From a virus, in the IMG/VR virus record IMGVR_UViG_3300030090_002697, positions 1 through 48,261 of that record: a stretch of DNA of 48,261 nt; one strand, written 5' to 3'. The notes below the pieces were generated by a model. The model was not told the DNA's origin. It did not search any database and worked only from the letters and a program-made list of their open reading frames with translations. The first letter of the stretch is position 1. The number at the start of each line of letters is the position of its first letter. Shown piece by piece: positions 7,793 to 42,550 of the stretch. The position numbers and the translations under genes are program-made.

Positions 7793-8542
7793 CTAACTTG
7801 TTGGAACGTCTTCTGAAAACGTATTTGATAATGCTAAACTACTACTATGAGATGTAGCTGCAACTCCTGAAGGGTTCATAAAATTATAAACTTTACTACT
7901 AGTATCAAAAGAATGATTTCCAAAGCTATACCAAAAATAAGGACTATACTTTCTCATATCTTGATGGTTACCTCCATTATAAAAAGAAGCTACATCGCTA
8001 GTTTTATCTGATTTCCAAACTGCCCATTCAAATATTTTGCCACTATAAGCTGAATTATTTCCAGCAAAATTAGCATTATAACCTATAAATCTTTGACTAG
8101 CATCAACATCACTAGCCTCAGTAAAACTAGTGTCACTTATTACTTGGCTTCCATTTAAATAAGCTTTTAAAGTATTTGTTGCATTATTTAAAGATACAAA
8201 TATATGATTCCAAGCTCCTGTAGTACAAGCAGAACTAGCTGTTTTTGCAACATTATTAATTTTAACAATTAAATTTTCACTACCATTTAAATATATCTGT
8301 ATTCCATCAGTAGCTGAATCAGTATGAGAATATATAGGGCTATTTGTACTTTCATTTGTTGGTTTAATCCACGTATGCATAGACCATGTATCTTTATGCC
8401 AAGGATCATCCTTTTCTGAACCTGATGAAATTTGCCAATATATTAAGTCATTTTCAGTATCATCTCCAAAATCTGCTGATTTTGTTGGGCTGTATACATC
8501 TACTGCTCCACCTTTTAAATTTGTTGCGCCTAACCCTAACAT
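7793..8542 (-). CDS. LamG/concanavalin-like structural protein (249 aa)
   Basis: Central residues about 50-190 follow the LamG or pentraxin-like jelly-roll pattern: WSMHTWIKP, a strand GIQIYLNGSENLIVKIN, then WNHIFVSLNNATNTLKAYLN and GKIFEWAVWKSDKTS. In phages such domains occur in proteins that bind host-surface glycans or decorate the virion. The start MLGLGATNLKGG is typical of marine phage structural proteins. It lies just downstream of another presumed surface protein (8544-8885), one base apart. The ligand is unknown. Confidence 0.7.
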   Translation of the reverse strand: MLGLGATNLKGGAVDVYSPTKSADFGDDTENDLIYWQISSGSEKDDPWHKDTWSMHTWIKPTNESTNSPIYSHTDSATDGIQIYLNGSENLIVKINNVAKTASSACTTGAWNHIFVSLNNATNTLKAYLNGSQVISDTSFTEASDVDASQRFIGYNANFAGNNSAYSGKIFEWAVWKSDKTSDVASFYNGGNHQDMRKYSPYFWYSFGNHSFDTSSKVYNFMNPSGVAATSHSSSLALSNTFSEDVPTS

Positions 8543-8543
8543 T

Positions 8544-8885
8544 TTAAGTTCCTAAATAAGCTATAACTATACCACTATCTATATCTATAGTAGTCCATCT
8601 ACCAAATATTGTTACACCTCCTGGGAAAGTATTACTATTGTCAATTGCATTCCCTGCTGAACCAGTAGTACCTATATATTTACCTGGTTCTGATGAAATT
8701 AAATCATTAAATGCAGCAGCAGCTACAATTGTTATTGCTACAAAAACTGTATTTGGATCTCCATAACTAGTAGCTAAAAAATCAGTATCAGCAGTATCTA
8801 TAAATATAGATCCTCCTTGACCTAATCCTACATTATTTGATTCTTGAACTGTAAAACCGTTTAAACCACCTTTTCTATTTGCCAT
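8544..8885 (-). CDS. Hypothetical virion protein (113 aa)
   Basis: The start ATG at 8885 follows a strong CAGGAGG site. The sequence is Gly/Ala/Thr-rich and beta-prone (NGFTVQESNNVGLGQGG, VFVAITIVAAAAFNDL, GVTIFGRWTTIDID). The AITIVAAAAFNDL and GRW elements recall small surface proteins often found near LamG proteins in marine phages. A decoration or tail-surface role is inferred from context only. No signal peptide is visible. Confidence 0.55.
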   Translation of the reverse strand: MANRKGGLNGFTVQESNNVGLGQGGSIFIDTADTDFLATSYGDPNTVFVAITIVAAAAFNDLISSEPGKYIGTTGSAGNAIDNSNTFPGGVTIFGRWTTIDIDSGIVIAYLGT

Positions 8886-8929
8886 GTTTACCTCCTGCCC
8901 TAAGCACTGGCTGTGCGTGAATGGGCTTG

Positions 8930-9637
8930 TTATCTTATTGCGTGTGAACCAGGTACTACAAGTCTCATTGTAGATACTCTGGAATTATTAAATTTTTCTA
9001 CTTTTTTTCTAAACTCTCTCATAAAATATTCTTTAACTTCTATATTTAAAGCTTCTTCTGCTAGTTTAGCTTTTACATAATCTACTAATGCTTTACATAA
9101 ATATTCTGGTAAATCAATTACATCATCTTCATCATTTAATACATCAACACTATAATACAAAAAAACTTCTTTTTCAAAATCAACAAATGTATGTGAAAGG
9201 TTAGGTATTTTAGTCCATGTTCTTATAGTATCATTAGTTGAGTTTACAGTAACAAACTCTTTTATTTTGTGTAACCCATTAAATCTTCCAGCATTTTTTA
9301 AAACAAAATAGTCTCCTACATTTAATATATTATCAAAATTAACGTAAGAAGAAACTGTATCTGATATGTCTAAAAAATTTCCACTAGAACTAGCTGCTGT
9401 TCTATAAGCTGTAATAGCATTAGTTTTTAAAGTTGTGTTTATTGTATATAATGGAGAATGAACATATTGAATTTCAAGAGCATCAGCAACACTTGATAAT
9501 GGTGATTTAAATTGAGCTCTATCACTACCAGGTCCAAAATCTTTTGAGTTTAAATCATTATCAAAAGTAGTATCTCTTTCAACAACTGCTACTTTTGTCC
9601 CTTTTATGTAATATGCGTATTGTTTTAATTCAGCCAT
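8930..9637 (-). CDS. Hypothetical structural protein, possibly neck/tail (235 aa)
   Basis: It follows the presumed connector genes in the leftward order (9910-10743, 9639-9920, then this one). It has beta-rich N-terminal sequence (YYIKGTKVAVVER) and a C-terminal helical domain (about 170-220, YLCKALVDYVKAKLAEEALN and EYFMREFRKKVEKFNNSR). Helical C-terminal segments with the pattern YxxxALxxYxKAKLxE are common in head-completion and neck proteins. Assignment is by position and shape; no family recognised. Confidence 0.5.
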   Translation of the reverse strand: MAELKQYAYYIKGTKVAVVERDTTFDNDLNSKDFGPGSDRAQFKSPLSSVADALEIQYVHSPLYTINTTLKTNAITAYRTAASSSGNFLDISDTVSSYVNFDNILNVGDYFVLKNAGRFNGLHKIKEFVTVNSTNDTIRTWTKIPNLSHTFVDFEKEVFLYYSVDVLNDEDDVIDLPEYLCKALVDYVKAKLAEEALNIEVKEYFMREFRKKVEKFNNSRVSTMRLVVPGSHAIR

Positions 9638-22147: not shown

Positions 22148-22246
22148 ATGGAGTTTTACATCATGATGGTATTTTCAATATTGGTAATATCATTTATAAT
22201 AACTTGGTTTATATGGGAACATAAATTCTGGGATGGTGAACTATGA
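22148..22246 (+). CDS. Tiny single-span membrane protein (32 aa)
   Basis: ATG 22148 is preceded by AAAGGAGAA. The product is almost entirely one membrane helix (MMVFSILVISFIITWFIW) with a charged end (EHKFWDGEL). The stop overlaps the next gene's start as ATGA, which supports translation. Function unknown. Confidence 0.5.
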   Translation: MEFYIMMVFSILVISFIITWFIWEHKFWDGEL

Positions 22247-22431
22247 GTTGGTATGCACAATCAGATGAGGCAAAACAACATTTAAAAGAATGTAAGAAAG
22301 ATAGTGATACATGTGAAAAATGTTTTGAGATAAGTGAAATGGCTTATGCAATGCAACAACATGGTAAAGGTAAACCACACCCATTGTTAAAGAAAACCTT
22401 AGAAATATTCTCAGGTGAGTTAATAAAATAG
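22243..22431 (+). CDS. Small Cys-containing protein (62 aa)
   Basis: The sequence has four residues that could bind a metal in KQHLKECKK and DTCEKCFEIS (Cys17, Cys24, Cys27 and nearby His). One CxxC pair is clear. The rest is helical with GKGKPHPLLKKTLEIFSGE. Too small for a family call. Confidence 0.55.
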   Translation: MSWYAQSDEAKQHLKECKKDSDTCEKCFEISEMAYAMQQHGKGKPHPLLKKTLEIFSGELIK

Positions 22432-22797: not shown

Positions 22798-22991
22798 TGG
22801 ATATAGGTAATATTGAAGCAAATACTATCATACTTAAAAAAACTGTTAAATATCTTAATGGTGAAGTAAAAGAAACTGTTGAAAAACAAATAAAAAAAAA
22901 CTACGAACTAATTGATGATTTCTTTGATCAATTAGCAGAAGAATACAAATCAATCCAATCATACGAACAAGGAGGCCCACATGGCAACTAA
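22797..22991 (+). CDS. Hypothetical helical protein overlapping the Ubl gene (64 aa)
   Basis: Helical and charged (ILKKTVKYLNGEVKETVEKQ, ELIDDFFDQLAEEYKSIQSY). The last codons contain the AAGGAGG ribosome site of the following ubiquitin-like gene and overlap it by 11 bases, so the two are translationally coupled. It may be an accessory or substrate of the conjugation cassette, but nothing in the sequence proves this. Confidence 0.55.
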   Translation: MDIGNIEANTIILKKTVKYLNGEVKETVEKQIKKNYELIDDFFDQLAEEYKSIQSYEQGGPHGN

Positions 22992-23199
22992 AACAATAAA
23001 ATTCCTACAAGGTGGCGGCTTTGTAGAGAGACAAACTAACGCTGATACTGTTGAACAATTAAGAGCAGAATTTCCTGACGATATTACTGGTAATGCATCT
23101 GTAGCTGTTAATGGTGTGTCTGTAACAAATACACATGCCATTGAAGAAGGTGATATTGTTGCAGCTGTTAATAATAATAAGTCTGGCGGTGATCAGTAA
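22981..23199 (+). CDS. Ubiquitin-like (ThiS/MoaD-type) beta-grasp protein (72 aa)
   Basis: Size and order of elements fit a beta-grasp protein: strand TKTIKFLQ, turn, strand GFVERQTN, helix TVEQLRAEF, strand ASVAVNGVSVT, then EEGDIVAAVNN and Gly69-Gly70 followed by Asp-Gln. The stretch VAVNGVSV...EEGDIV resembles ThiS and MoaD, where a bare terminal Gly-Gly is adenylated. Here two residues lie beyond Gly-Gly, so trimming would be needed, as in eukaryotic ubiquitin precursors. E2-like, JAMM and E1-like genes follow. I infer a conjugated modifier; a sulfur carrier is the main alternative. It has a strong AAGGAGG site. Confidence 0.75.
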   Translation: MATKTIKFLQGGGFVERQTNADTVEQLRAEFPDDITGNASVAVNGVSVTNTHAIEEGDIVAAVNNNKSGGDQ

Positions 23200-23215
23200 T
23201 TATTAACTTGTAACT

Positions 23216-23297
23216 TATAGGGCTGTAGTGACAGGCGAGTGATAACACAGATGAATAGATATCCAAGTAACACTAACGAGGGTCAATCAGCCCTATA
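23216..23297 (+). promoter_or_regulatory. Stem-closed element between Ubl and E2-like genes
   Basis: TATAGGGCTG (23216-23225) and CAGCCCTATA (23288-23297) are perfect 10-base complements closing 62 bases. A small CTGT/ACAG stem is possible inside. It fills the 121-base gap between the Ubl stop and the E2-like start and ends 23 bases before ATG 23321, ahead of GGAGGG. It might set the ratio of abundant modifier to scarce enzymes by RNA processing or attenuation. Confidence 0.5.
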
Positions 23298-23320
23298 TAA
23301 CATTAACCTTTGGAGGGTAT

Positions 23321-24547
23321 ATGAATTTTAGAGATTATGACTGTATTGTTGATGGCACAATGGAACAATGCATAGAAGAAATTAATGTAGGAGATCTTGA
23401 AGATCACATATATTATGGTCCTCAAGCAGAAATAATGGAAAAACTAACTAGATTTAATACTAGGTATGGTGCAGATTTAGAAGTAACTAAAACATTCAAA
23501 TGGAAACGTGGTTCTTATGATAAAGTAGCTGAACTTATGATGAGAGGTCTTGGTTTTAGAAGAAGACCTAGTGGTATGTACAACTATTTACAAAGAGAAG
23601 AATGGTTTCGAACTCAAACATGGAATAGTATAAAAAATAATTTACGTGATTTAGATGAAACATTGTATAGGTTAAGATGTAATGGTGAAGTATGGCTAGA
23701 TGACCCTGGTGTACTTGTTGAAAGAAAGAACTTGTATTATAATTATCTAATAGAAAAAACTGAAGAAGCTGATAATTTGATAGAGAATATAGATATTATG
23801 AAAGATTTATATCATCAACTATTTGTTCATCCAACATCGCGTTCTAGTAAAAGATATATGTTAGTAACCACACTTCGTATAGCGCCTGATATAATGAAAG
23901 TTTACACAACAAGAGGTAGAGCAAGTGCTGAGCCTGCTAAACATATAGAAAACATAGCTTGTGATACAGATTTGTATATTAATTTCGTATCATATCCTTT
24001 GTTGACTATGACTAGGCACGCTAATTATGACTGCCCATCATTTGATGTAAGTATTCATGGTGAAATTGAACAGCCAGAAGAAAAAGGTTTTTTATCTTTT
24101 CCATATATCTCTGGTAGTAGAAATTATCAAGGTGGATACTTTGGTAACAGTGTTTGCTATGGTGATCAAGCAACTTCAATGTATAATGCAACAAGAAGGT
24201 ATGATCTATCATCTATTGTATTACAATCAATACCTTGGGCTACATCATATACTAATGAAACACAGCCACATAGTAATATTAAACTAATGTATCATGGTGA
24301 ACCTGCTAAACTATCTGAAGAATACAGAAAAATATTTGGCACAAATGACTCAAACTATTGTAATTACGACCCAGATGGCGTAGATGACTATTGTGATAGA
24401 AATGAATGTACTCTTAGACATGATTGTGAAGCGTACAAACTTGCTCATCCTGAACCAGTAACGCCAGAACAGGCTGAACAAATGACATTACAATGGGCAA
24501 CTAGAATGGGTGGTGTTAGAGAATTAATAAACAACGAGGAGGAATAA
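23321..24547 (+). CDS. E2-like ubiquitin-conjugating protein, divergent (408 aa)
   Basis: The C-terminal half contains FPYISGSRNYQGGYFGNSV followed by Cys279-Tyr-Gly-Asp and then a hydrophobic helix (LSSIVLQSIPW). This is the order of prokaryotic E2-like proteins, in which HPH-like residues precede a catalytic Cys in a CxG motif. Cys279 is therefore the candidate for carrying the modifier as a thioester. The N-terminal 200 residues are helical with no known family, larger than a normal E2 core of about 150. The last 70 residues have a cysteine group (NYCNY, DYCDRNECTLRHDCEAY) that may bind zinc. It lies between Ubl and JAMM genes. Fold assignment is by motif and context. Confidence 0.6.
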   Translation: MNFRDYDCIVDGTMEQCIEEINVGDLEDHIYYGPQAEIMEKLTRFNTRYGADLEVTKTFKWKRGSYDKVAELMMRGLGFRRRPSGMYNYLQREEWFRTQTWNSIKNNLRDLDETLYRLRCNGEVWLDDPGVLVERKNLYYNYLIEKTEEADNLIENIDIMKDLYHQLFVHPTSRSSKRYMLVTTLRIAPDIMKVYTTRGRASAEPAKHIENIACDTDLYINFVSYPLLTMTRHANYDCPSFDVSIHGEIEQPEEKGFLSFPYISGSRNYQGGYFGNSVCYGDQATSMYNATRRYDLSSIVLQSIPWATSYTNETQPHSNIKLMYHGEPAKLSEEYRKIFGTNDSNYCNYDPDGVDDYCDRNECTLRHDCEAYKLAHPEPVTPEQAEQMTLQWATRMGGVRELINNEEE

Positions 24548-25516
24548 ATGGAAGTATTAATACATAAAGAATCTTGGGATAAAATTATAAATTATGCTAA
24601 AGCTGCTTATGTTACAGAAAAAGCTGAGATAGGTGGTATGGCAGTAGTAACACAGGATAAAGATGGTGATTGGACTATAGAAAATCCAGTTATATTGCCA
24701 CAAGAGATTGCAGGGACAACATGTGATCTAGATAAAGAACATCTAGCTAAATATTACACGGAGATGGCTATGAAGTATAGTGATCAGGTGTTTAGATTCT
24801 GTTGGTGGCATAGTCATCACACAATGGATGCATTCTGGAGTGGTACAGATTTATCTAGTATTGATGAGTATGGTGAAGGTGATTCAGATGTATCATTTGC
24901 ACTTGTAGTTAATCTAAAAGAAGAATACAAATGCAGAATATCTGTATGGAAACCAGTAGAAATACATGAAGATGTTGATGTTGTTATATTAGATGACAAG
25001 CCTGAAGTAGAAATACCTCTTGAAATAGTTACAGAAGTTAAAGCTAAATGTAGGACAAGATCACTTAGCTCTTATCAAACTGGATTTACTAGACTTCCAT
25101 CTAATGGTAAACAATTGAGTTTAAGTACTTGGTATGATAGTAGAGGTATGAGCCCTCATTATCAGCTATTAGAAGATGATTGTATAGTTAAACAGCCAAC
25201 AGAGTCACAAGCTGCTACATTTGAAGCTAAATGGGAGTATGCTATGGGTAAGATAACTGAGTATGTTAGACAAGTTAATATAGGTCAGTGGACTATGCAT
25301 AAGTTTAAATCGGCAATTACACATACTAATAAACACTTAGAACCATATGGTTTAGAAATAGACAAACTAAACAAAAAAGAATTACAAGAGTTTGTTAGTA
25401 TGGATGGTGAACCTTATGAACTAATAAATGTTATTGACAACAAGTATCAAGAAATAGCTGAATCTTTAATAGATGCTGCATGTTATAACAAAACATATGG
25501 AGGTACATGGGTATGA
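24548..25516 (+). CDS. JAMM/JAB metalloprotease, deubiquitinase-like (322 aa)
   Basis: A complete zinc-protease signature is present: Glu27 (AEIGGM), His88-Ser-His90, then Ser98 and Asp101 (HSHHTMDAFWSGTD), the E...HxHx7SxxD pattern. Such enzymes cut after Gly-Gly of ubiquitin-like proteins or free conjugates. The Ubl gene here ends GGDQ, so trimming of Asp-Gln is the natural job. Residues 150-322 form an extra domain with no recognised family (FTRLPSNGKQLSLSTWYDSR, MGKITEYVRQVNIGQWTMHK), perhaps binding partner proteins. It starts one base after the E2-like stop and overlaps the E1-like start. Confidence 0.85.
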   Translation: MEVLIHKESWDKIINYAKAAYVTEKAEIGGMAVVTQDKDGDWTIENPVILPQEIAGTTCDLDKEHLAKYYTEMAMKYSDQVFRFCWWHSHHTMDAFWSGTDLSSIDEYGEGDSDVSFALVVNLKEEYKCRISVWKPVEIHEDVDVVILDDKPEVEIPLEIVTEVKAKCRTRSLSSYQTGFTRLPSNGKQLSLSTWYDSRGMSPHYQLLEDDCIVKQPTESQAATFEAKWEYAMGKITEYVRQVNIGQWTMHKFKSAITHTNKHLEPYGLEIDKLNKKELQEFVSMDGEPYELINVIDNKYQEIAESLIDAACYNKTYGGTWV

Positions 25517-26166
25517 TAAACACAAGAAGTCAAGATATTGCAAATATATCAGGTATTAACTTTCACATTGTAGGTTGCGGGGCTATTGGGAGCTCCGTAG
25601 CCATGCAATTAGCAAGACTTGGAGCTAATCAATTTTATTTATATGATTTTGATAAAGTTGGTATAGAAAATGTAGGCGTAAGTCAATATGTGAATGAAGA
25701 TGTTGGTAAAAGTAAAGTTCAAGCATTACGTTCTCATCTTTGGAGCATAGATGATAGCATAATAAGTGATATTACTATTGATAAATTTAAATATTATGAA
25801 GGTAATAAAGATGATATACTTGTATTAGGTTTAGACAGTATGTCTGCACGTATGGAAGTAGTTAAATTATTAGCAAAATGCCCTAATAAACCATCATTTG
25901 TGATAGATGGTAGGATGGGTGCAGAACAATATCAACAATACATATATGATAATATTACTGTAAGTAAATACACTAAAGATTGGTATTCTGATGAAGATTC
26001 TGATCCTGAACCATGCACTCGTAAAGCTACATCTTACTGTAGTAATATGAGTGGTAGTTTTATTTCTAATTCTATTAAGAACATAGTTATGAAACAACCA
26101 TACTTCAAAGAAATTATTTTTAATTTTTCAACAATGATACTTGATAAAAAGAAATTAATTTCGTAA
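25513..26166 (+). CDS. E1/ThiF-like adenylating enzyme (217 aa)
   Basis: A Rossmann-type ATP site reads IVGCGAIGSS (residues 19-28), followed by YLYDFDKVGIENV with Asp45 and Asp47, Asn53, Gln58 and DVGKSK (Lys66, Lys68), all conserved in E1/ThiF/MoeB enzymes. The Arg usually next to Gln is Ser here. Cys168 in PCTRKATSYC is the candidate thioester cysteine and Cys176 lies nearby. It should adenylate the Ubl C-terminus. ATG 25513 is chosen over 25507: it is 9 bases after GGAGG and overlaps the JAMM stop as ATGA. At 217 residues it is short for the family. Confidence 0.85.
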   Translation: MINTRSQDIANISGINFHIVGCGAIGSSVAMQLARLGANQFYLYDFDKVGIENVGVSQYVNEDVGKSKVQALRSHLWSIDDSIISDITIDKFKYYEGNKDDILVLGLDSMSARMEVVKLLAKCPNKPSFVIDGRMGAEQYQQYIYDNITVSKYTKDWYSDEDSDPEPCTRKATSYCSNMSGSFISNSIKNIVMKQPYFKEIIFNFSTMILDKKKLIS

Positions 26167-30504: not shown

Positions 30505-33419
30505 TATTTCCTATCTAAGTCTCTCATTAATTGATCTAATTTATAACTACCTGTATCGTATCTTTTATTTTTCTTTTTATTTTTTAAAAAGTAATCCCCA
30601 TAACCTTTTACTTTTCTTCGTTTAAAAAATGGTATACCAGGTAAATTTAATCCAAGTAATTCTTTATCATCACCTATCCAATTTTTAGTATTTTTAATCC
30701 AAGGTGCAGGATAAGCTGCAAAAGTATGTCTAACTAAATCCATGCCTCTATTACCACGAACAGATGGTATTGCTTTATTAGCCATAAATCCAGCAAAAGT
30801 TCCTAATCTATTCCAAAAAGCTCTATCTCTTGCTGCTCCATCTTCACTTTCAAGCAATCTATCGTATCCAAAAAACATTCTAGATAGTTCACTATCAGGA
30901 ATATCCATCATATTTGATGCTTGTAAACCAAATATAATATCATCTACAATAGGACCAGTATAATCTCCGATAATACCATAATATCCTTTAGCATTATCTT
31001 TTAACGATCCATCAGGATTAAGTTCATCATCGTCTGGTCCAGCAATATTTCTATAAAGATTTTTTACTTTTTCAATAGTATCGTTTTCAAATATTCTAAA
31101 TAAATCAGCATTTAATAAAACAGATATACCTGCTATAAATCCAGTCAATGCTGCATTATTTACAGCATATTTTATTTCAGGTGAATCCCATTGTTTTGCT
31201 GCAACTGAATGACCTATTCCTTCTACCATTTTATATTGCATATCAGCAAAAAACATAGGATAATGTAATAAAGCAGTAGCCATAGATGTGCCACTAGTCA
31301 AACCTACTTCTATTTTGTTTTTAATTTTACCATCTATAGTTACTTTACCAGGAGATCCAGTTAAAAGTCTTGATTTAGAATGTAATGCATATTCACCAGC
31401 CATTTGATTTACAGCAAATAAAGCTGTATTAGCAGCATCTTTAACCATTTTATTAGACATAGGCTTTTTCATATTTATAGAATTACCATTATGTTTACTC
31501 CAATATTCTGGATGTGACCTATATATTTCCATAGCTTGTACAAAAGCTTGTTTAAACATAAAGTTTCTAGTTATATTTTCACCTTTTTGATGAAAGTATA
31601 ATAATCTATTAGGAATATTTTGAAAAAATTTAGATACAGGATTACTTAACATAAACTCGTTAACAGAAACATATCCATTTTTAGATCTTTTATTTATAAC
31701 TTCAATCTGTCCTGATTCTAAGTTGTATTTAAAATCTAAAAGCTCTGTTCCTTCTTTAGTTAAAACACCTTCAGCAGCAAGTTCTTGACCAATATTTAAA
31801 TCATCTCCAAATTTAAATCCTTGTATTCTTGACACAGCATCAGTTAATGCTTGGTAAGTAATTGCTCCATCAGTATCATGTTTTAAAGTACCATTTTTAT
31901 AAATATTATTATGTTTTTTGATATTAAATAATCCTATTTTAGATAAAAAGAAACCTGCAGAAGCTACGTTTCTAACAGCACCAGTTAATCCAAACCCCAT
32001 AGCTTTAAGAGTTTGAAATATATTTATTGATCTAACAGTTTTATTAAGCCATTCAGGTCTATTCTGCAATCCTTTAGTAGATATAACAAACTGGTCATCA
32101 ACAAAATCTGTAAGACCTTTTAAATATTCTATATTAATTTTAGGATCTTTTAAAGCTTTAGTAACTCTCATATATTCTTTTGCTATTGAATTTAATTTAT
32201 TAAACTGTATAGCTTGAGCTCCATATTGTTCTAATATATAAAATGGATTTTGAGATGTTCTTCTTTCTAAAAGTTCATTTTTTGATTTTACATTAGCTGG
32301 CATATCAGATTTTAACATATTTTGTAAATTTTCTGATAAATCTTCTGTTTTTCTTTTTATACCTTCAAAGGATGATTCATTCATAGTTTCATTAAATTTA
32401 GCTTTTAATTTCATAACATCATCTAATAATATTTGTGGAAAATAACCACCTTCTTTTATACCAATTTTAATTCTATTTATAGCATCTTCTACGTTTTTAT
32501 CAAGAGATCTAAGTATTCTATCTCTAGCCATGACAGATGCTTTAGTATCATTGTATTCACTATTAGTATTTTTAAGCCACAACCCTTCTCTTAAGAATCT
32601 TAGTGCCTGTATATTCACTTCACCCATTTTATTTAAATATTGTCTACCTTTATCAACTGCATCTACAATATGTCTATTATAAGCTGTACCATATCTATTT
32701 TGATCTTCTTCTATTTTTCTTCCATATTTTTGGCCTCTAATACCTTCTTTTATAGCTTTTTTGTATTCAGCTGGAGTTAAACTTATAAGTGTATTAAAAT
32801 CTCTTATAAAACCTCCTTTATCGCTTCTTACTATTTTTTCAATTTTTTGTTGAGTCTTAAAGATAAATGATGGATCTTCAGAATATTTTACTTCATTTTC
32901 ATATTTTTGTATTTTTTTAAGAACAGGTAATTTATTAAAAAACCCAGAGTTCATACCTAATTCTATATAACCTTTTCTAATACTTTTTAAAATTTCTTTC
33001 ATAAATATAGCTTGTTCTGCTATTTTGTTTCTTTCATAACTTTTAGCCTGATCTAAGTTATTTTGAAATCTTTTAGTAGCAGGAGTTTTTCTCATTGCAG
33101 CGTTAGGTATTCTAAAAATTGAACCTAATTTAGTTAAAGGTTTATTTAATTGTCTATCATGTTGCTTAACTGTATTTTGAAATCTTTTTACTTGACTATC
33201 TTTTAAAATAAAAGCATCATCTAATCTTAATGATTCATCTTGCATTTTTAATATTTCTTGCATTTCTCTTACAGCTGAATTATTATCATTAATATCCTCT
33301 ACTTTACCATACATACTAGTAAGCATCTCAGAGCTATTATAAGCTTTAATCATTTTTTCAATACGAACTTTATTGTCTAACACTTCTTGTGTAACTGTTA
33401 TATTATTGCAAGCTGTCAT
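30504..33419 (-). CDS. Large internal virion/ejection protein (971 aa)
   Basis: The protein is helical and charged over residues 1-400 (ESLRLDDAFILKDSQVKRFQ, KNELLERRTSQNPFYILEQY). It has hydrophobic amphipathic stretches in the second half, such as LKAMGFGLTGAVRNVASAGF, TSMATALLHYPMFFADMQYK and ALTGFIAGISVLLNADLF. The latter could cross or insert into membranes. It lies directly downstream of the giant polymerase-like gene (TAATG overlap), at the end of the leftward unit. In podoviruses such large helical proteins sit inside the head and enter the cell before DNA. The role is inferred from layout and composition; no family name is offered. Confidence 0.5.
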   Translation of the reverse strand: MTACNNITVTQEVLDNKVRIEKMIKAYNSSEMLTSMYGKVEDINDNNSAVREMQEILKMQDESLRLDDAFILKDSQVKRFQNTVKQHDRQLNKPLTKLGSIFRIPNAAMRKTPATKRFQNNLDQAKSYERNKIAEQAIFMKEILKSIRKGYIELGMNSGFFNKLPVLKKIQKYENEVKYSEDPSFIFKTQQKIEKIVRSDKGGFIRDFNTLISLTPAEYKKAIKEGIRGQKYGRKIEEDQNRYGTAYNRHIVDAVDKGRQYLNKMGEVNIQALRFLREGLWLKNTNSEYNDTKASVMARDRILRSLDKNVEDAINRIKIGIKEGGYFPQILLDDVMKLKAKFNETMNESSFEGIKRKTEDLSENLQNMLKSDMPANVKSKNELLERRTSQNPFYILEQYGAQAIQFNKLNSIAKEYMRVTKALKDPKINIEYLKGLTDFVDDQFVISTKGLQNRPEWLNKTVRSINIFQTLKAMGFGLTGAVRNVASAGFFLSKIGLFNIKKHNNIYKNGTLKHDTDGAITYQALTDAVSRIQGFKFGDDLNIGQELAAEGVLTKEGTELLDFKYNLESGQIEVINKRSKNGYVSVNEFMLSNPVSKFFQNIPNRLLYFHQKGENITRNFMFKQAFVQAMEIYRSHPEYWSKHNGNSINMKKPMSNKMVKDAANTALFAVNQMAGEYALHSKSRLLTGSPGKVTIDGKIKNKIEVGLTSGTSMATALLHYPMFFADMQYKMVEGIGHSVAAKQWDSPEIKYAVNNAALTGFIAGISVLLNADLFRIFENDTIEKVKNLYRNIAGPDDDELNPDGSLKDNAKGYYGIIGDYTGPIVDDIIFGLQASNMMDIPDSELSRMFFGYDRLLESEDGAARDRAFWNRLGTFAGFMANKAIPSVRGNRGMDLVRHTFAAYPAPWIKNTKNWIGDDKELLGLNLPGIPFFKRRKVKGYGDYFLKNKKKNKRYDTGSYKLDQLMRDLDRK

Positions 33420-36400
33420 TATTTACACCCACTATTATTTTCTTTTCTTTTACTTCTAAAATATCTAATCTTTTTACCTTTTGTTGTAGCTTTAGAATAT
33501 ACACCATCAGAATAATTTCTACTATTATAAACATTAGCAAATGCTGGATCAAAATATCCATAATCTGCAAACAATGATTTTGAAAAATCTAAATCTGAAT
33601 CTCTAAATAAATCATCCACATTATCAGATGAAGCTTTAAAGTAAACATCTGTTAAATGATGTAGATAAGCGTCTTCATGAGATAATCCATTCATAATATC
33701 AGCTTGTCTTCTTTGTTCGCCTATTATATATTCTAATTTTTCTGGCATATTATTAGGCTTTAATACATTATTATCACTTAAAAATTTATACACAGCAGAT
33801 TGAAGTCTAGGGCTAGAATAAACATAAGGTAAATCAGTCATAGGACCTTTTACAAAAGACCCACTTAATGGTCTAGGATTTAATAGCAATAATGCTAAAT
33901 CAATTGTAGGATCATTTTCACCTAATCTTAAATTACCATCTTTATCAAATGAATTATATTTTTTAAACAGTTCTGTAATAACTATTTGATCATTAAGACC
34001 AGAGTAAGCATAAGCATCCGATTTTTCTTGTATATTTTCTTTGCTATGTTTTCTAGCAAATTGATAATTATCATTAATTTTATCCATGACATTTGCAACA
34101 TCATCATAAAGCCTATCTATCTGTCTATCTGTTTTTACAATATTATCTATATTTTTAACATTATCTATTGCTAACCATAAAGCTTGATTTTGAACAACTT
34201 CATTAGGACCTAAAAACTTTTCTATTAATGGTTTAGTAAGCTCAATATATGTTCTATTAGATCTCATTTTGTAAGAATCACTAGCTTTAGGATTAAAGTT
34301 ACCATGATAAGTTAATTGTGAAAAATCTTGATTCATAATATCAGCTACATCTATTCTGCCTGAAAAACTATAAACATTAACTGGTTGTCTTACTTTCTTT
34401 ACAAAATTATTAATATTATTTTTATATACTCTTACTGTACCTTTTTTATCATTTAACAAGTTTTTCATTGCAAGTTTATCTAATATTTGCAATGCACTTT
34501 CTACATCTCTTAATCTAGATGATAATATATCATAATCATATTCATTTACTTTGTATTGAGAACCATCCATTTTACCTATTTCAACAGATAGACTTGATGC
34601 TTCTTTTGTAAGTAAATGATAAACAGCAGATCTCATATTTACATTTTGAAAACTAAACTTATTATTAGTTTCTTTTGCATCTAAAACAGCAAAATCTAAA
34701 ACATCAGGTGCCTCTTGATCAGAAAACAAAGTTTTAACAGGATCTGAATTAGGATAGAATGTTTTGTATATAGCTATACTATTCATAAAGTTAGTTTTTC
34801 TTGCTCTTACAGTTGCTAAATCAATCTTAAATTGTTTAGAATTTAATTGACCATAAAAATCTACATCTTTTAATAATTCTTTTTCTCTAATTTTTTGTAA
34901 AGCATACCCTTCATCTGCTAATGTTAATGCTTTTATTGGGTTATCATAACCTGATTTAGTTATATTACCTGCATTTTTAAGAGTAATAAGTTTGTTTATA
35001 ACTCTAGGAGGTCTTCCAGAAAAGTAATCCTGTATTTTTGATGCATCTAATATCGGTTCTGCAGTTCTGCCTTCAGTATAAAATGTTTTAATAATTTCTT
35101 GCATCATATCTGGTTTATTAGAAAATCTTTTAATAAGTTCATCAGCAACATATTGATTTGGATTTCTTAACATATCAAGTAAATTATCATATATTTCACC
35201 TAAATAATAGTCTGTTGGAGTAAATTGACCACCTTCATTAAATGGATCGTTAAAAACAGACTTAGCTTTATTTAGTGTACCTAGCATTATATTAGCTATT
35301 TCTTGATTTAATAATCCAGAATTAATAGTATTAGGGTCGTCAGTCTTAAATTTTTTATATGCACCTTCTATAGAGCCTGGTATTTCAATTCCTAATTTAG
35401 ATAATTTTTCTTTTATTTGTGGATTAACATCACCAAATATAGTAGCTCTTCTTAACACATTTGTAAGATCAGTTTGAAAATGTTTGTCAACTGCATTTTG
35501 ATTTATATCTGCTTGAGCTCTTGCAGATAAAGATTCAAAACTTTCTAACCCTTTTTTAATCATATCAATATCTGATACATTTACAAACTTAGCTTTAGAA
35601 TTATCTTTAAAATTAAATTCAATACCTATATTACTAGCCCAATTCAAAGTATTTTTTAATGAAATTGTTTCACCAATAGCATATTCGTTTCTATTGATTT
35701 GATTTTTTAATGTACTAAATCCTATGTCTTGTGGTATTTTACCAAATTTTCCATCTTGATTCATACCAAATATATTATTATTAAAAGCATATCTTGGAAG
35801 CTGTCTATAATCTTCTATAGTACCTAATTTTTTAATAGATTCATTTATAAATCTAGATGGCATACCTAAATAATGAAACCCATGATCTCCATCAAAATCT
35901 CTTTGATGCATAACTCTTAAATCATAATTGTTAATAATAGTATGATTACCCATATCTTCAGTCAAAAATGAACGTATTCTATTAAAACCAACATCAAGGC
36001 TTTTCTTTGGTATAGCGATTGATACAACACCTAAATTAATTTTATATTTATTTTTTAAATTATCTAATGATTTGCTCACAACATTTTCAATAACAGGGAA
36101 TCCTTGGTTATCTTTAACTATTCTGTTATGACTGTTTTGTGTTATAAGATTATGTATGCCTTCAAAAGTAGCAACAGTTTTATTTATACGCGTACTTGTC
36201 AATGTTTCTTCAACGTATTTTCTTAATTCTTGTAAATCTTTCATTAAAGCTTTATCAGATCTTATACTATTAATTTTTAAATTGTTACCATCAAATGTAG
36301 TTCTGTATGTTTTATCATTAACTACATCAAACATAGCATCAGTAACATCTATATCATTTTTAACAAATCTTATTCTTACATCTCTTCCTTCGTGTTGTAT

Positions 36401-39400
36401 AATAAAATCTAAATCTTCTATACTTGAAACATTTCTTTTTCCTAAATGTTTTGGTAAAGATACATCACCGAAATTAGTTGCTATTCTAGAATTAACAACA
36501 GATTCAGTTTCAGTTATATCTTTTGAAAAGTTTTCAAGTTCAGCAAATATAGTTGGATTGTGATCGTTAAATAAATCAGGAATTAAATATGTATCAGCAC
36601 CTTTTGATGTCATATTTCTTCTAACACTATCAAATATCTTGCCTCTAAATAAAGTTTTTAATTGATTCTTAATAGCAGTATTGTTAGTAGACATACCAGC
36701 ATTTAAAAGTTCTTGAGCAAATCCATAACTACCATCACTAAAATCATAACCTGTATCATCTTCCATCTCTCTCATCATTGTTAATATTAACTGAGGGTCA
36801 TCTAATTTATCAAAATCTATTTTTCTAGCTACTAATTCATCAATAGTTTTATCTAAGCCTTTATATTTTCTTATATCTTTAACAATATCAGCAGCAAGAA
36901 AATCATTTAAAGAATTAGAAACCATAACTTTGTCACCCTGTTTAGCCATATGTCCTAATCCTATAGAAGAAAAAGGTATTTCTATTATTCCGTCTCTATT
37001 TCCTGAGCTTCTTGTAAGTAAATTATCTACAAAACTTAAACCAGGATTTAATTTAAATGCAGACAATGGTTTTTCGTTTGCATCTAATCCATAAAATGCT
37101 TTAGCTGCACTTTCACCAACAATCATATCAACATCGTCTAAGTTTGGTATTTTTGATATAGCATCATTATAATGAAAATAACCTTTTATAACTAATCCTT
37201 GTGCACTTTCAGTCATAAATCCATCTGCAAATGCAGTATTAGCTTTAATACCATTACCATTTTCGTTACCAAATGTAGATCCTAAAACTTTTCTTAAATC
37301 ATTATTTACAATAGTAACAGCCCCATCTATTACAGAACTATGTAAGCTTTCAATTTTTTTACCATCCATAATTTTTGCTTTAAATTTATCTGCATATGGA
37401 CTATCTGATTGATCTAATTTAGCTACAACAGCATCTCTATTAGACATTAAATCTGTTTTAGTAAATACACCAGAATTAAAATCTTTTTCCCAAGCTTGAT
37501 CTGATACAACTAAAACTTTCAGTTTTTTATTTTTAAAGGTATTAAACAGATTTTTTGTTTCTTGACTAACACCATTATATCTTGTAATTAAATCTAAATA
37601 ATTATCATTTATATAATCATAGTTTTTATTTATAGTTTGATTAGTAACTTTAAGAAGCTTTTGAGCCATTTCATCAAATAAAGCATCTCTGTTGTTTGAT
37701 TTATAGACATCATCAGTAAAGAAATTATCAAACTTATTAGCTAAACTAATATCTAAATTCATTTGCAACATTTTAATAGCAACGTCAGCAGAAGAATTAC
37801 CTATATCTTGAGTAGCGTAATCAAAATTCATTTGTAATCTTTTGTCTTTTAATTCTAATTGTATTAATTTATTTTCTCTCCATCGAGCATAAAAATCATT
37901 TACTCTATCTATATTTTCTTTTGTTAAAGGAACTGCAATGGGAGCGCCATTAGTCATATCAAGTACAGTAAATAATCTTTCTGATTGTTGATTTTTTATA
38001 GCATCAGTGATAACATCTTCAATATCTAATGTTTCTGAAGTAAATATCTTTTCTGCTAGTGTAGGATCAACATGAACTCTTTCAGCTAACATATTTTCTA
38101 AATCTCTTTTGGTAAAATTAGCAGCATTAATTGTTGTTTTTCTACTATTGTTCTCTGCCATCTGATTTATTTGAATTACATCTAATCCTATCATTTTCAT
38201 TAAAGGTGAATTAATGCCAGCTAATGTTCTTCTTCCAGGCACATTATCTTCAACAACTATACTATTATCTTTAACTGTAAATGTTGTTATAGGTTCATCA
38301 AGAGAACTTACGTATCTAACTAAATTTGGTAACTGTAATGCAAAGTCTTCAAGGTCTTTACGTAAATTTACCGCGTCATTGCCGTTTTTAGACAATAATT
38401 TGTTTTGAACATATGCTTCTAAGGCTAAAACCTTTTGTTGCCTAATATCATCTATTATAGCAGTTTTTTCATTTTCAGGCAAATCATCTCTTTTAAATTC
38501 ATTTTGTTTTTCAACACTATATTTTGAATTTATATATGTTTGTATATCTCCATCAGGTATTTCAACTAATGTGTTTACAATAAGCTCAACAGCTTCTTGA
38601 TCAATTTTATTAGGATTATTAATATCAGTTAAGTTAAACTTTTTAATAAGCTTCATTGGACTATTATTATCATTATGAGAAGCATTTTTATTAACTAATT
38701 CTTTTACATTTCTAATACTTTCTGTTAAATCATTATTATACTTTGTTATGTTAACCTTACTCATAGATTGTATATTTATATTGTCTATTATTCTGTTTAA
38801 ATCATATGAGCTTCTAGTTTTTTTGTAATCATTAATAAGTTCAGTCAAAGAAAATTTATTGTATTCAGTAACACCCATTACTCTTGCTAGTTCTTTTTGC
38901 AGTGTATCAGCCTTACGTAAGAACATACCTCTTGTAGAAAAATCATTACCTAAACTCATAATTGAGGAAATTAATTTTCTAGTTCTCAAATCTTGATAAG
39001 TATCAAACTTTACAATATTTTCAATAATGTCACCAATATCTTGAATAACAGGACTAGCATCAACTGACATAAATTGATTCTTTTTATAAGCATCTCTAAC
39101 TATATCTAATGATATTTGTAATTCAGAAATTTGTTTTTCTAATCCATTTAATCCATTATGACCAGCAACTTTAGTTCTTAATCTATTTAAAAATACTTCA
39201 ACAGAATTATTAAATTCATTTAATATATCAGAGTTTTTTGTAATACCTTGATCTGCTAATCTTCCAGCACTTTCCATAAAAGTATTTACTATATCTATTA
39301 TACCACCGCCAATATCTCTAACATCTTTATATTTCTGATCATTAACAATAGTTTCTCTAATATTAGAAAGGCTATCCATAATTTTATTAAAGTTACCTAT

Positions 39401-42400
39401 ATTGGTCATTTCATACAAAAAGTCAATATTTTTAATATCTGATAAAGCTATATTATCTGCTGGTATTTCTCCACTTGGTTTTATTGCTGGATGTTTAGAT
39501 ATTTTATTAAATACTTTTGTATACTTTTGTATAGACTTATCTACTTCTCCACCAGGCCCTTGTGAATAACCCTTTTCTATTAAATGTAATCTAAGAGCAT
39601 CTGGTGTAATTAAACTTTTATCTTTTAAATCAAAAACACCTGCATCTTTAGCAGCAGTTACAATAGCTAAATCTTCTTCAGTAAACTTTTCAGATTGTAA
39701 TGTTCTTTTTAATACGTAATCAGCTAAGTTTGTATTAAAGTCTAATCCTTCAAATAAATTTTTTGGTATTATATAATTTAACTTTGAATATTCTTTTATT
39801 AAAAGATCAGCTTCACTTTCTGTTATTTTATTTTTATACTCTGGTGACGCTTTTTTCTCAAGGTTTCCAGCACTCATAAAATCAAATAAAGTATTTATCT
39901 TTGTTTGCAATTCTGCTAAATCATTTTCTTTTCTTAAAAGTTTATCACCTTCTAAATTGCTAAACTTAACTTCATCACTTGGTATAACTTCAGGAGCATT
40001 CTTAATCATAGTACCAGTATCATCACCTTGACCTGATTGTTTTGTATATCTAGAATTAATAGTAAACATTTTATGAGCTAATTCAACAAAGTTTTGTTCT
40101 AGAGCAGTTAATCCCTCTTCTCCACCTTTTGAATTTGCTAATTTATAAGCCATATCCATATTTTCATACATTTTGCCTGCAACAGTAGCTTGTAAATAAG
40201 GATTGTTTACTGTACCAAAAAAGTTATCTATTCTAAGAGCAGAGTTATTGCCATGTATATTCTTTACTATTTGACTTATTGTTGTTTCAGCAATATCATC
40301 AATTGTTTTAGCTACATCTACTTTAGATTCATCACCTTTTATAACAATCTTTTTATTATTGCCTGAACCTATTTCTTGGAAAATTATTGATTTATCTCCA
40401 ATTTTAGAAGTAGCATAACCTAAATCACTAAACATTTCTAAAAGTTTGTAAAATTTATTTATACTATGATTATAATTACCATCTACTGTAAAATCAATAT
40501 TGCCAGGTAAGTTTACAATGTCATAATGTATTTTACCATCTTTTGCAACATTAATATTCAAGTTTGGAATTTTGTCTTGAATAATTTGAATCATTCTAAA
40601 ATAATAATTTTTATTAGATTCTCCTAGCTCTCTCATTGTATTATTTAATAAATCACCTATAGGTATTTCAGTTAACTTAGTATCACCTATTCTTAAATTA
40701 GATAATTCATTATATATTTGCTCAATACGAGCAACAGGTAAATCTCTTGCATTAATATCTTGTACTTTATACGGGTTTGCAACTTCTGCTCTATGCATTT
40801 GATTTGCTAAATTAACAGCTTCACTTACTTTTTGAACAACAGTATGATCTAAGCTTTCAAATGTTCTATTATCATCTTTTACAGTAGAATTTAAAATAAT
40901 ATCATTTGGTTTTATAATATCATATATAGCATTTCCTATTGGAGTTTGCCTTGTTGTTAAATTCATTAAATCACCTATTCTTCTATTTGATGAATACACA
41001 TCAATAAAAGATTCTAAATTCTTAGAGTCTAAATTTAAATAACTAAATGCTTCTTGATAGTTTTGAAAATCTTTTGCCCATTGCGAAGGTTCTGTATCTC
41101 TATCCCACAAACCTCTACTTTTAGTCATAAATGCACCAATCATCATATGTTGTGCTAACTCTGGATAAGTCAAGTCTTCAAATTTATTATTAACCCATAA
41201 ATCTATATTCATAACCATAGATCCTGCTAACATTCTTGGACCAGAACCAATTAAATCTTTAATATACTCTTTACCAAACTGACCAAATTTATTAACTGTA
41301 AATAACTTATATTGCTCTAAAAGATCAATAACATCATCAATTGGCATAGAATCTGCTTGTTGCAATATTTCATTAGGAGAGTATGTTTTACCTGCATTTT
41401 TACCTGTTCTAATTTTCCAATTTTGACCTTGAAATCTTGAAACATTTATTATATTATTATCAGCACCTCTTGTCATTAAATGCAGTAATCCTCTAACATT
41501 TTTTTCACCATTAGGTTTACCAGCCATTTTAGCATAATTAAATCTATCTAAACCTTTTCTTAATGCTGCTTTATTTTTCATTATTTCAAAACCTTGCGAC
41601 AATTGAGTAGCACCTTTGCTACCTAATCCAGGTATATTACCAAAAAATCTAACACCAGGGAATAGAGCTGCTTGAACAGCATTTATACCAAATTGTTCTG
41701 CAATAGCATTTCCACTTATTTTATCGCCATAAAGAGCATTACCTACACTTGTTGTAATTAATTGATGACCAGCAAATACAGCTACATCTTGAGCAGCCAT
41801 ACCCATATATTTAGCTGGCAATCCTTTTAAAAATGGTGCACTTCTTGCTAAGCCTTGTTCTACCCAATCTTCAAAATTGTTTACATGTCTTCCTGGTTTT
41901 CTTAATTCTTTAGCTAAATTATTTGCTATATTTCTAGATATATTAGGATCAATAGTTCTACCAGCATTTTTAAATGAAGCTCTAAGACCTGCATCCATAT
42001 TGTTAATCATCATTCTCTCTACAGTTTCCATCTGTTTATCACTAAAACCATATCTATTTAATGTTTGAGCTACAGTTGGATTTTTAAATAATTCTTTTTG
42101 TATAGTTTTTTCTAAAAATGCTTTGTCTGTTTTACCAATATGTTTTGCTACATTATCTGCTTTAATTCCTTTAATTATATTTTGACTACTTTTAGCAGCA
42201 AATCTACCTGTAGCTTTATTTATACCTTTACCTAAAAGAGCAAAAGGTCCTTTAGGGCTTATATAAGATAATGCAGACCCAAATCCTCTACCCATACGTT
42301 GAGCAAGATTCATTTTATTATAATCACGTTTCCCAAGTCTAACAGCACCAAAAGTATATCCTTCTGCTGCACCACCAAAAGCAGAACCTAAAAAGTCTCC

Positions 42401-42550
42401 AACATTACCAGTTTTATAATAATCTACACTTCTTTCATTATAACCAGATATATCGTCATCAATTAATGATGAAAAACCAATTTGTGAATGTGAATCATAA
42501 CCATGAAGTATTTTGGCGTCTTGTATATAATCTTGAAAAGTATTACTCAT
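33419..42550 (-). CDS. Giant protein with RNA polymerase double-psi barrel motif; candidate virion RNA polymerase (3,043 aa)
   Basis: Residues 2218-2222 are Asp-Phe-Asp-Gly-Asp in MHQRDFDGDHGFHY, the Mg-binding DxDGD of the beta'-type double-psi barrel. The preceding stretch (VVSIAIPKKSLDVGFNRIRS, then a turn, strand and HQR) matches the barrel order seen before that motif in beta'. About 280 residues earlier DFSDGSYGFAQELLNAG (1936-1952) and two lysines (1965, 1971) suggest the first barrel. The N-terminus (SAFGGAAEGYTFGAVRLGKR, FGSALSYISPKGPFALLGKG) and the rest are helical and of unknown family. crAss-like phages have giant virion polymerases with this motif. It adjoins presumed ejection proteins, fitting co-injection. 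Confidence 0.6.
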   Translation of the reverse strand: MSNTFQDYIQDAKILHGYDSHSQIGFSSLIDDDISGYNERSVDYYKTGNVGDFLGSAFGGAAEGYTFGAVRLGKRDYNKMNLAQRMGRGFGSALSYISPKGPFALLGKGINKATGRFAAKSSQNIIKGIKADNVAKHIGKTDKAFLEKTIQKELFKNPTVAQTLNRYGFSDKQMETVERMMINNMDAGLRASFKNAGRTIDPNISRNIANNLAKELRKPGRHVNNFEDWVEQGLARSAPFLKGLPAKYMGMAAQDVAVFAGHQLITTSVGNALYGDKISGNAIAEQFGINAVQAALFPGVRFFGNIPGLGSKGATQLSQGFEIMKNKAALRKGLDRFNYAKMAGKPNGEKNVRGLLHLMTRGADNNIINVSRFQGQNWKIRTGKNAGKTYSPNEILQQADSMPIDDVIDLLEQYKLFTVNKFGQFGKEYIKDLIGSGPRMLAGSMVMNIDLWVNNKFEDLTYPELAQHMMIGAFMTKSRGLWDRDTEPSQWAKDFQNYQEAFSYLNLDSKNLESFIDVYSSNRRIGDLMNLTTRQTPIGNAIYDIIKPNDIILNSTVKDDNRTFESLDHTVVQKVSEAVNLANQMHRAEVANPYKVQDINARDLPVARIEQIYNELSNLRIGDTKLTEIPIGDLLNNTMRELGESNKNYYFRMIQIIQDKIPNLNINVAKDGKIHYDIVNLPGNIDFTVDGNYNHSINKFYKLLEMFSDLGYATSKIGDKSIIFQEIGSGNNKKIVIKGDESKVDVAKTIDDIAETTISQIVKNIHGNNSALRIDNFFGTVNNPYLQATVAGKMYENMDMAYKLANSKGGEEGLTALEQNFVELAHKMFTINSRYTKQSGQGDDTGTMIKNAPEVIPSDEVKFSNLEGDKLLRKENDLAELQTKINTLFDFMSAGNLEKKASPEYKNKITESEADLLIKEYSKLNYIIPKNLFEGLDFNTNLADYVLKRTLQSEKFTEEDLAIVTAAKDAGVFDLKDKSLITPDALRLHLIEKGYSQGPGGEVDKSIQKYTKVFNKISKHPAIKPSGEIPADNIALSDIKNIDFLYEMTNIGNFNKIMDSLSNIRETIVNDQKYKDVRDIGGGIIDIVNTFMESAGRLADQGITKNSDILNEFNNSVEVFLNRLRTKVAGHNGLNGLEKQISELQISLDIVRDAYKKNQFMSVDASPVIQDIGDIIENIVKFDTYQDLRTRKLISSIMSLGNDFSTRGMFLRKADTLQKELARVMGVTEYNKFSLTELINDYKKTRSSYDLNRIIDNINIQSMSKVNITKYNNDLTESIRNVKELVNKNASHNDNNSPMKLIKKFNLTDINNPNKIDQEAVELIVNTLVEIPDGDIQTYINSKYSVEKQNEFKRDDLPENEKTAIIDDIRQQKVLALEAYVQNKLLSKNGNDAVNLRKDLEDFALQLPNLVRYVSSLDEPITTFTVKDNSIVVEDNVPGRRTLAGINSPLMKMIGLDVIQINQMAENNSRKTTINAANFTKRDLENMLAERVHVDPTLAEKIFTSETLDIEDVITDAIKNQQSERLFTVLDMTNGAPIAVPLTKENIDRVNDFYARWRENKLIQLELKDKRLQMNFDYATQDIGNSSADVAIKMLQMNLDISLANKFDNFFTDDVYKSNNRDALFDEMAQKLLKVTNQTINKNYDYINDNYLDLITRYNGVSQETKNLFNTFKNKKLKVLVVSDQAWEKDFNSGVFTKTDLMSNRDAVVAKLDQSDSPYADKFKAKIMDGKKIESLHSSVIDGAVTIVNNDLRKVLGSTFGNENGNGIKANTAFADGFMTESAQGLVIKGYFHYNDAISKIPNLDDVDMIVGESAAKAFYGLDANEKPLSAFKLNPGLSFVDNLLTRSSGNRDGIIEIPFSSIGLGHMAKQGDKVMVSNSLNDFLAADIVKDIRKYKGLDKTIDELVARKIDFDKLDDPQLILTMMREMEDDTGYDFSDGSYGFAQELLNAGMSTNNTAIKNQLKTLFRGKIFDSVRRNMTSKGADTYLIPDLFNDHNPTIFAELENFSKDITETESVVNSRIATNFGDVSLPKHLGKRNVSSIEDLDFIIQHEGRDVRIRFVKNDIDVTDAMFDVVNDKTYRTTFDGNNLKINSIRSDKALMKDLQELRKYVEETLTSTRINKTVATFEGIHNLITQNSHNRIVKDNQGFPVIENVVSKSLDNLKNKYKINLGVVSIAIPKKSLDVGFNRIRSFLTEDMGNHTIINNYDLRVMHQRDFDGDHGFHYLGMPSRFINESIKKLGTIEDYRQLPRYAFNNNIFGMNQDGKFGKIPQDIGFSTLKNQINRNEYAIGETISLKNTLNWASNIGIEFNFKDNSKAKFVNVSDIDMIKKGLESFESLSARAQADINQNAVDKHFQTDLTNVLRRATIFGDVNPQIKEKLSKLGIEIPGSIEGAYKKFKTDDPNTINSGLLNQEIANIMLGTLNKAKSVFNDPFNEGGQFTPTDYYLGEIYDNLLDMLRNPNQYVADELIKRFSNKPDMMQEIIKTFYTEGRTAEPILDASKIQDYFSGRPPRVINKLITLKNAGNITKSGYDNPIKALTLADEGYALQKIREKELLKDVDFYGQLNSKQFKIDLATVRARKTNFMNSIAIYKTFYPNSDPVKTLFSDQEAPDVLDFAVLDAKETNNKFSFQNVNMRSAVYHLLTKEASSLSVEIGKMDGSQYKVNEYDYDILSSRLRDVESALQILDKLAMKNLLNDKKGTVRVYKNNINNFVKKVRQPVNVYSFSGRIDVADIMNQDFSQLTYHGNFNPKASDSYKMRSNRTYIELTKPLIEKFLGPNEVVQNQALWLAIDNVKNIDNIVKTDRQIDRLYDDVANVMDKINDNYQFARKHSKENIQEKSDAYAYSGLNDQIVITELFKKYNSFDKDGNLRLGENDPTIDLALLLLNPRPLSGSFVKGPMTDLPYVYSSPRLQSAVYKFLSDNNVLKPNNMPEKLEYIIGEQRRQADIMNGLSHEDAYLHHLTDVYFKASSDNVDDLFRDSDLDFSKSLFADYGYFDPAFANVYNSRNYSDGVYSKATTKGKKIRYFRSKRKENNSGCK

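Follow-up and report, generated by a model that had tools for sequence, protein, structure and literature searches.

An E2-like protein, probably a conjugating enzyme, in a phage-encoded ubiquitin-like operon

The question raised by this locus is what a phage would do with four adjacent genes whose predicted products are a ubiquitin-like modifier (Ubl), an E2-like protein, a JAB peptidase and an E1, and whether the protein at the E2 position is indeed a conjugating enzyme. The window, i.e., the whole stretch of DNA analysed (48,261 bases of a virus record), encodes a P22-like portal, an SU10-type capsid protein, terminase, lysin, Erf and a DnaB-like primase-helicase, and this set of virion and replication genes identifies a tailed phage. 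A minus-strand gene situated among those for the virion (33419-42550) encodes a protein of 3043 aa. Our reading, to which we assign a probability of about 0.8, is that the protein is the E2 of a ubiquitin-like conjugation operon of the phage, with the order Ubl-E2-JAB-E1 and the cycle proposed below. The features of the operon are:

22981-23199, + strand: Ubl modifier, 72 aa, ThiS/MoaD-like, ending NNNKSGG-DQ with a tail to be trimmed (ThiS Pfam match, E 0.0025, below the curated cut-off)
23216-23297, + strand: RNA hairpin in the Ubl-E2 spacer (fold z -2.15)
23321-24547, + strand: predicted E2-like conjugating enzyme, 408 aa, ATG start
24548-25516, + strand: JAB/JAMM peptidase, 322 aa (Prok-JAB E 8.5e-5, just under the cut-off)
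25507-26166, + strand: E1, ThiF/UBA5-like adenylating enzyme, 219 aa (ThiF E 1.3e-15; Cys170 at 26014-26016)

The open reading frame at 23321-24547 is genuine and coding. Its Shine-Dalgarno sequence is good to strong (TTGGAGGGTATATG) and common to relatives, and the dN/dS of 0.19-0.38 against five homologues places the protein under purifying selection. The 408-aa frame, with Cys279 within SVCYGD and with the C-terminal cysteines C347, C358, C363 and C369, is as described in a first-pass annotation of the DNA. JAB begins at the base right after its stop codon, and E1 overlaps JAB by 10 bases. On the other side, the Ubl-E2 spacer has 121 nt (23200-23320), and its hairpin possibly sets different levels of Ubl and E2. 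In the spacers compared (L002 3601-3672, L003 6869-6969, L005 1948-2060, L006 7907-8000 and L010 7821-7985), the hairpin has a long closing stem, whose sequence differs from one relative to the next, and an insert that varies. The spacer of L005 resembles a tRNA cloverleaf, having an arm with the loop UUCAACC; a tRNA search of the Ubl-E2 spacer and an Rfam search of the window spacer returned nothing. A small conserved frame with the pattern H-x3-C-x(6-7)-C-x2-C, a possible zinc knuckle, occurs at 22243-22431 of the window and at 7700-7966 of L007.

The partners carry the motifs of their proposed activities. Ubl C-termini in the family commonly read (N/D)K(T/S)GG plus a short tail, and the Ubl is 86-92% identical between relatives whose E2 is 56-70% identical. 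In JAB, the stretch WWHSHHxMxxFWSxTD and an upstream residue, E27, are conserved; the JAMM motif is intact. The best PDB profile match of E1 is UBA5 (E 2e-9), a minimal eukaryotic E1 with its catalytic Cys in the crossover loop (PMC12355090). Cys170, in the late part of the protein, is kept in all 90 rows that cover the site, crAss phages included, and judging by this conservation it is likely the catalytic Cys of E1.

How widely is the operon distributed? Homologues were collected by iterated HMM searches, seeded first with close homologues and later with the adjacent E1 and JAB, which gave 134 E2-like frames (76 distinct), all viral and down to ~17% identity. The order Ubl-E2-JAB-E1 on one strand was found in 109 of 109 loci with all four genes. 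The operon occurs in hundreds of viral contigs, and 276 relatives of JAB are reported in viral contigs; a scan of 84,980 prokaryote genomes with the JAB alignment had no match, the E1 alignment gave only one partial ThiF match among prokaryotes, and tblastn in a phage genome collection did not find a homologue. Loci with E1 and JAB and no E2 match are of the crAss/Fpv type, in which the E2-like protein has diverged beyond the reach of the family profile, or start close to JAB. In most loci the operon block adjoins Erf, a conserved protein of ~178 aa and the primase-helicase; of 96 distinct loci, 78 have a primase-helicase cluster downstream and 44 an Erf-like cluster. Two departures from the usual layout were seen. 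One locus near a contig end (L086 1375-3374) has Ubl-JAB-E1 with no E2 between, the E2 being lost or displaced. In others a spore-photoproduct-lyase-like radical SAM gene stands between E2 and JAB (L010 9274-10221, L044 6044-6919); its cluster was found in nine loci.

The E2-like protein itself can be divided as follows:

23321-23698, + strand: N-terminal domain (aa 1-126), mostly helical, with a GPQ motif (aa 33-35) and conserved N46, T56, F59, W61 and G64
23699-24349, + strand: predicted E2/RWD-fold catalytic core (about aa 127-343; AF2 model m5506b4b3a6bf, matches to Ubc12 and UBE2L3)
24098-24109, + strand: FPYI (aa 260-263), at the position of the E2 HPN motif
24155-24157, + strand: codon of the predicted catalytic Cys279 (motif VCYGD)
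24359-24436, + strand: C-terminal Cys4 cluster, C347-x10-C358-x4-C363-x5-C369-x2-Y

Cys279 is invariant in the family alignment, being present in 71 of the 71 homologues that cover the position, down to ~17% identity. Equally constant are G281 (71/71) and P261 (70/70), with W306 close behind (69/71), whereas residue 260 varies (F in 31, H in 27, Y in 12). E2 enzymes have an HP-x-I ... C-L stretch, and the family motif, [FHY]-P-[YF]-I-x(n)-C-x-G followed by W, reads like it; the HPN Asn of canonical E2s is absent in the family.

The fold prediction points the same way. An early AF2 model built on a 10-sequence alignment was unusable (pLDDT 39.8), and the model built on 54 sequences has a pLDDT of 85.8 and a pTM of 0.76. 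Among 994 PDB chains compared with it, only four reached Z>=5, all of them E2s: yeast Ubc12 (Z 6.8, 130 residues aligned, rmsd 3.3) and chains of UBE2L3 (Z 5.8, 5.6 and 5.4). Each alignment spans 124-130 residues of the stretch aa 127-343 and takes in its helix-meander-Cys-helix region, and the next-best PDB row on the core domain had a Z of 4.5. Values below 8, such as this 6.8, may reflect a common arrangement, and the strength of the match is moderate. Foldseek with the same model gave nothing significant against the PDB, E2s surfacing only in the VIA second comparison. The window protein matches no family in the curated libraries, Pfam included, E2 families are absent among the 25 families listed for 54 members, PDB profile searches, whether run with the full family or only with its core, recovered no E2, and a Prok-E2_B search across the window record returned nothing. 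It is the fold match and the operon context together that make the E2 role likely; given the moderate Z and the missing Asn, we term the protein an E2-like enzyme, not a canonical UBC. The earlier proposal of an E2-like protein with catalytic Cys279 is thus borne out at the level of a predicted activity: it withstood both of the checks named with it, on conservation of Cys279 among homologues and on kinship of the predicted fold to E2. That annotation had placed the E2-like part only around Cys279; the resemblance extends over a whole domain.

The N-terminal domain was modeled with pLDDT mostly of 70-95. Its GP pair is present in 66 of 66 aligned sequences, the Q of the motif in 64 and N46 in 65, and it probably serves for docking of a partner or substrate. 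The long extension noted before does exist, but it has ~126 residues, not 200, and possesses a GPQ motif of its own.

A second branch of the system appears in crAss-like phages and their like. The order Ubl, ~400-aa protein, JAB and ThiF occurs in crAss001 (gp79-gp76), DAC15 (gp048-gp051), cr128_1, bajarodcaudo virus 1, Dulem virus 41 and Flavobacterium phage Fpv1 (gp58-gp53, with an endonuclease gene within the JAB region); cr106_1 has only the ~400-aa protein, JAB and ThiF, and its small upstream frame does not look like a Ubl. The annotations of the operon in crAss001, DAC15 and Fpv1 read hypothetical protein, metalloprotease and thiamine biosynthesis protein, and ubiquitin and ThiF are unmentioned in the crAss phage papers examined. 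These operons share with the window family the gene order and a replication neighbourhood (primase, UDG and nucleases in the crAss phages), and iterated profiles show their E1 and JAB to be homologous. Their E2-position proteins, however, cannot be aligned by sequence with the window family, have H-S-H...C-x-G among 19 positions invariant in seven sequences, and follow Ubls in which a K-S-G or S-S-G site precedes a long tail. Profile comparison (hhalign) of the two E2-like families was not significant, so the link rests on synteny, motif and structure: Foldseek with the window model found a 435-aa protein of cr128_1 (probability 0.89, E 0.015), and 435 aa is the length of the E2-position protein in the same-order operon of that phage. 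We consider the link good by structure and synteny and unproven by sequence.

We propose the following cycle. The JAB peptidase would remove the last two residues of the Ubl (DQ), exposing GG; E1 would adenylate this end and keep the Ubl bound as a thioester, with Cys170 the probable site; transfer to Cys279 of the E2-like protein would follow, and the E2-like protein would attach the Ubl to a lysine (or another nucleophile) of the target, from which JAB could remove it again. A separate E3 would be unneeded, since BilABCD works without a described one (PMC11354881), and the choice of target would probably lie in the GPQ domain and/or the optional Cys4 metal module. BilABCD also shows in what way a cassette of this kind can work inside bacteria. 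Since the operon belongs to a replication/recombination block both in the family of the window and in crAss-like phages, proteins of replication or of host takeover would be the most likely targets in the course of infection.

The main rival concerns purpose only, namely that the same conjugating enzyme is a Bil-like weapon carried against superinfecting phages and not a replication aid. The gene order is that of BilABCD (PMC11354881), but the operon sits in the phage's own replication block instead of an accessory position, and it was not found in the bacterial genomes searched, where defence systems live; we therefore find this purpose unlikely. Somewhat less probable still is a scaffold or sulfur-transfer role, in which an E2/RWD-like fold would work together with a ThiS-like Ubl in thiolation or metabolite chemistry and no protein would be conjugated. 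The profiles do put the Ubl closest to ThiS and E1 closest to ThiF, the HPN Asn is missing, and sulfur-linked clusters of Ubl, JAB and E1 have been described (Iyer et al. 2006; PMC1779556). Those clusters, however, carry sulfur-assimilation genes, none of which was recognised near the window operon, and sulfur transfer would leave the invariant E2-type Cys and the dedicated E2-like gene in every full operon to be accounted for.

Another pertinent question is whether the C-terminal cysteines make the protein its own E3, as the first-pass annotation suggested in order to explain the absent E3 gene. The cluster as such is real and mostly conserved: the strict four-Cys pattern is found in 54 of 71 homologues and a variant spacing in ten more, the part after the earlier Cys being C-x4-C-x5-C in 47 members and C-x2-C-x5-C in 5. 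Such spacing would suit zinc or a 4Fe-4S site, and a putative metal site is plausible from the sequence. Seven of the 71 (L006, L089, L142, L146, L149, L152 and L155) have no recognisable cluster, among them L006, a close homologue of the window protein; there (8001-9260) an in-frame net loss of 37 aa spans the cluster, possibly as an assembly fault. The loss lies between similar TATAGA/TATAAGA stretches. That the cluster is dispensable in some relatives makes an obligatory built-in E3 unlikely, and four conserved Cys in place of the eight cross-brace ligands of a RING-type E3 mean that it is not a RING. Nor can the missing gene count as evidence for an E2-E3 chain, a use of it that we reject, as no E3 gene figures in the descriptions of the bacterial BilABCD and CBASS Cap2 (PMC11354881, PMC10097602). 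A hybrid whose Cys4 module binds zinc and selects the target is thus improbable, despite the strict pattern in most members, the position of the module directly C-terminal of the core and the lack of any other E3 candidate identified in the operon; the pattern argues for an accessory putative metal module, not an essential E3.

We see an even chance that two far-diverged branches of bacterial viruses, the window family and the crAss-like/Fpv phages, own a complete system of Ubl conjugation and deconjugation whose E2 forms a new family, and that they use it during infection to modify proteins of replication or of the host; the role in replication or host takeover would follow from the location of the operon. 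Known prokaryotic E1-E2-Ubl-JAB operons are bacterial, and anti-phage where tested. Here, if this is true, ubiquitin-style control would be wielded by the phage and not against it, in hundreds of contigs as well as in the cultured gut phages crAss001 and DAC15, by an E2 family whose N-terminal domain is conserved and whose putative metal module is optional. What does the phage tag, and why? Both are testable questions. Ubiquitin-like conjugation operons are a known kind; the phage ownership and the E2 family are new, with novelty unproven to the extent that our search for a description of a phage-borne Ubl-E2-JAB-E1 system, which found none, covered the open-access literature.

Type 6d operons, which we take to be PRTRC-like, offer one comparison; the window matches no PRTRC model at cut-off (PRTRC_A 11.4 of 101.8 bits, PRTRC_ThiF 26.7 of 144.75 bits). 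They combine the same four activities (Ub-like, JAB, E1 and E2) and their E2-like protein also lacks the classical HPN arrangement, but they are bacterial and have an added helical protein (Iyer et al. 2006; PMC1779556). The lambdoid TAPI/TAPK pair is likewise a phage Ubl with JAB (PMC1779556), though with no E1 or E2 and a role in tail assembly. Closest in layout is BilABCD, a bacterial ISG15-like anti-phage system whose Ubl, E2 (BilB), JAB and E1 follow the A-D order of their names, and S. cerevisiae Ubc12, the best structural match of the window protein, is reported as a closest structural homologue of BilB (PMC11354881). The window operon differs in being phage-encoded and not found in the prokaryote genomes searched. 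Its E2-like protein has T, M and R where the Bil E2 has the +6 Glu, +8 His and +13 His of its CEHH motif (PMC11354881), and its Ubl is single-domain and ThiS-like, whereas that of BilABCD is two-domain and ISG15-like. Its E1 is small and single-domain, and its E2 has the extra GPQ and Cys4 modules.
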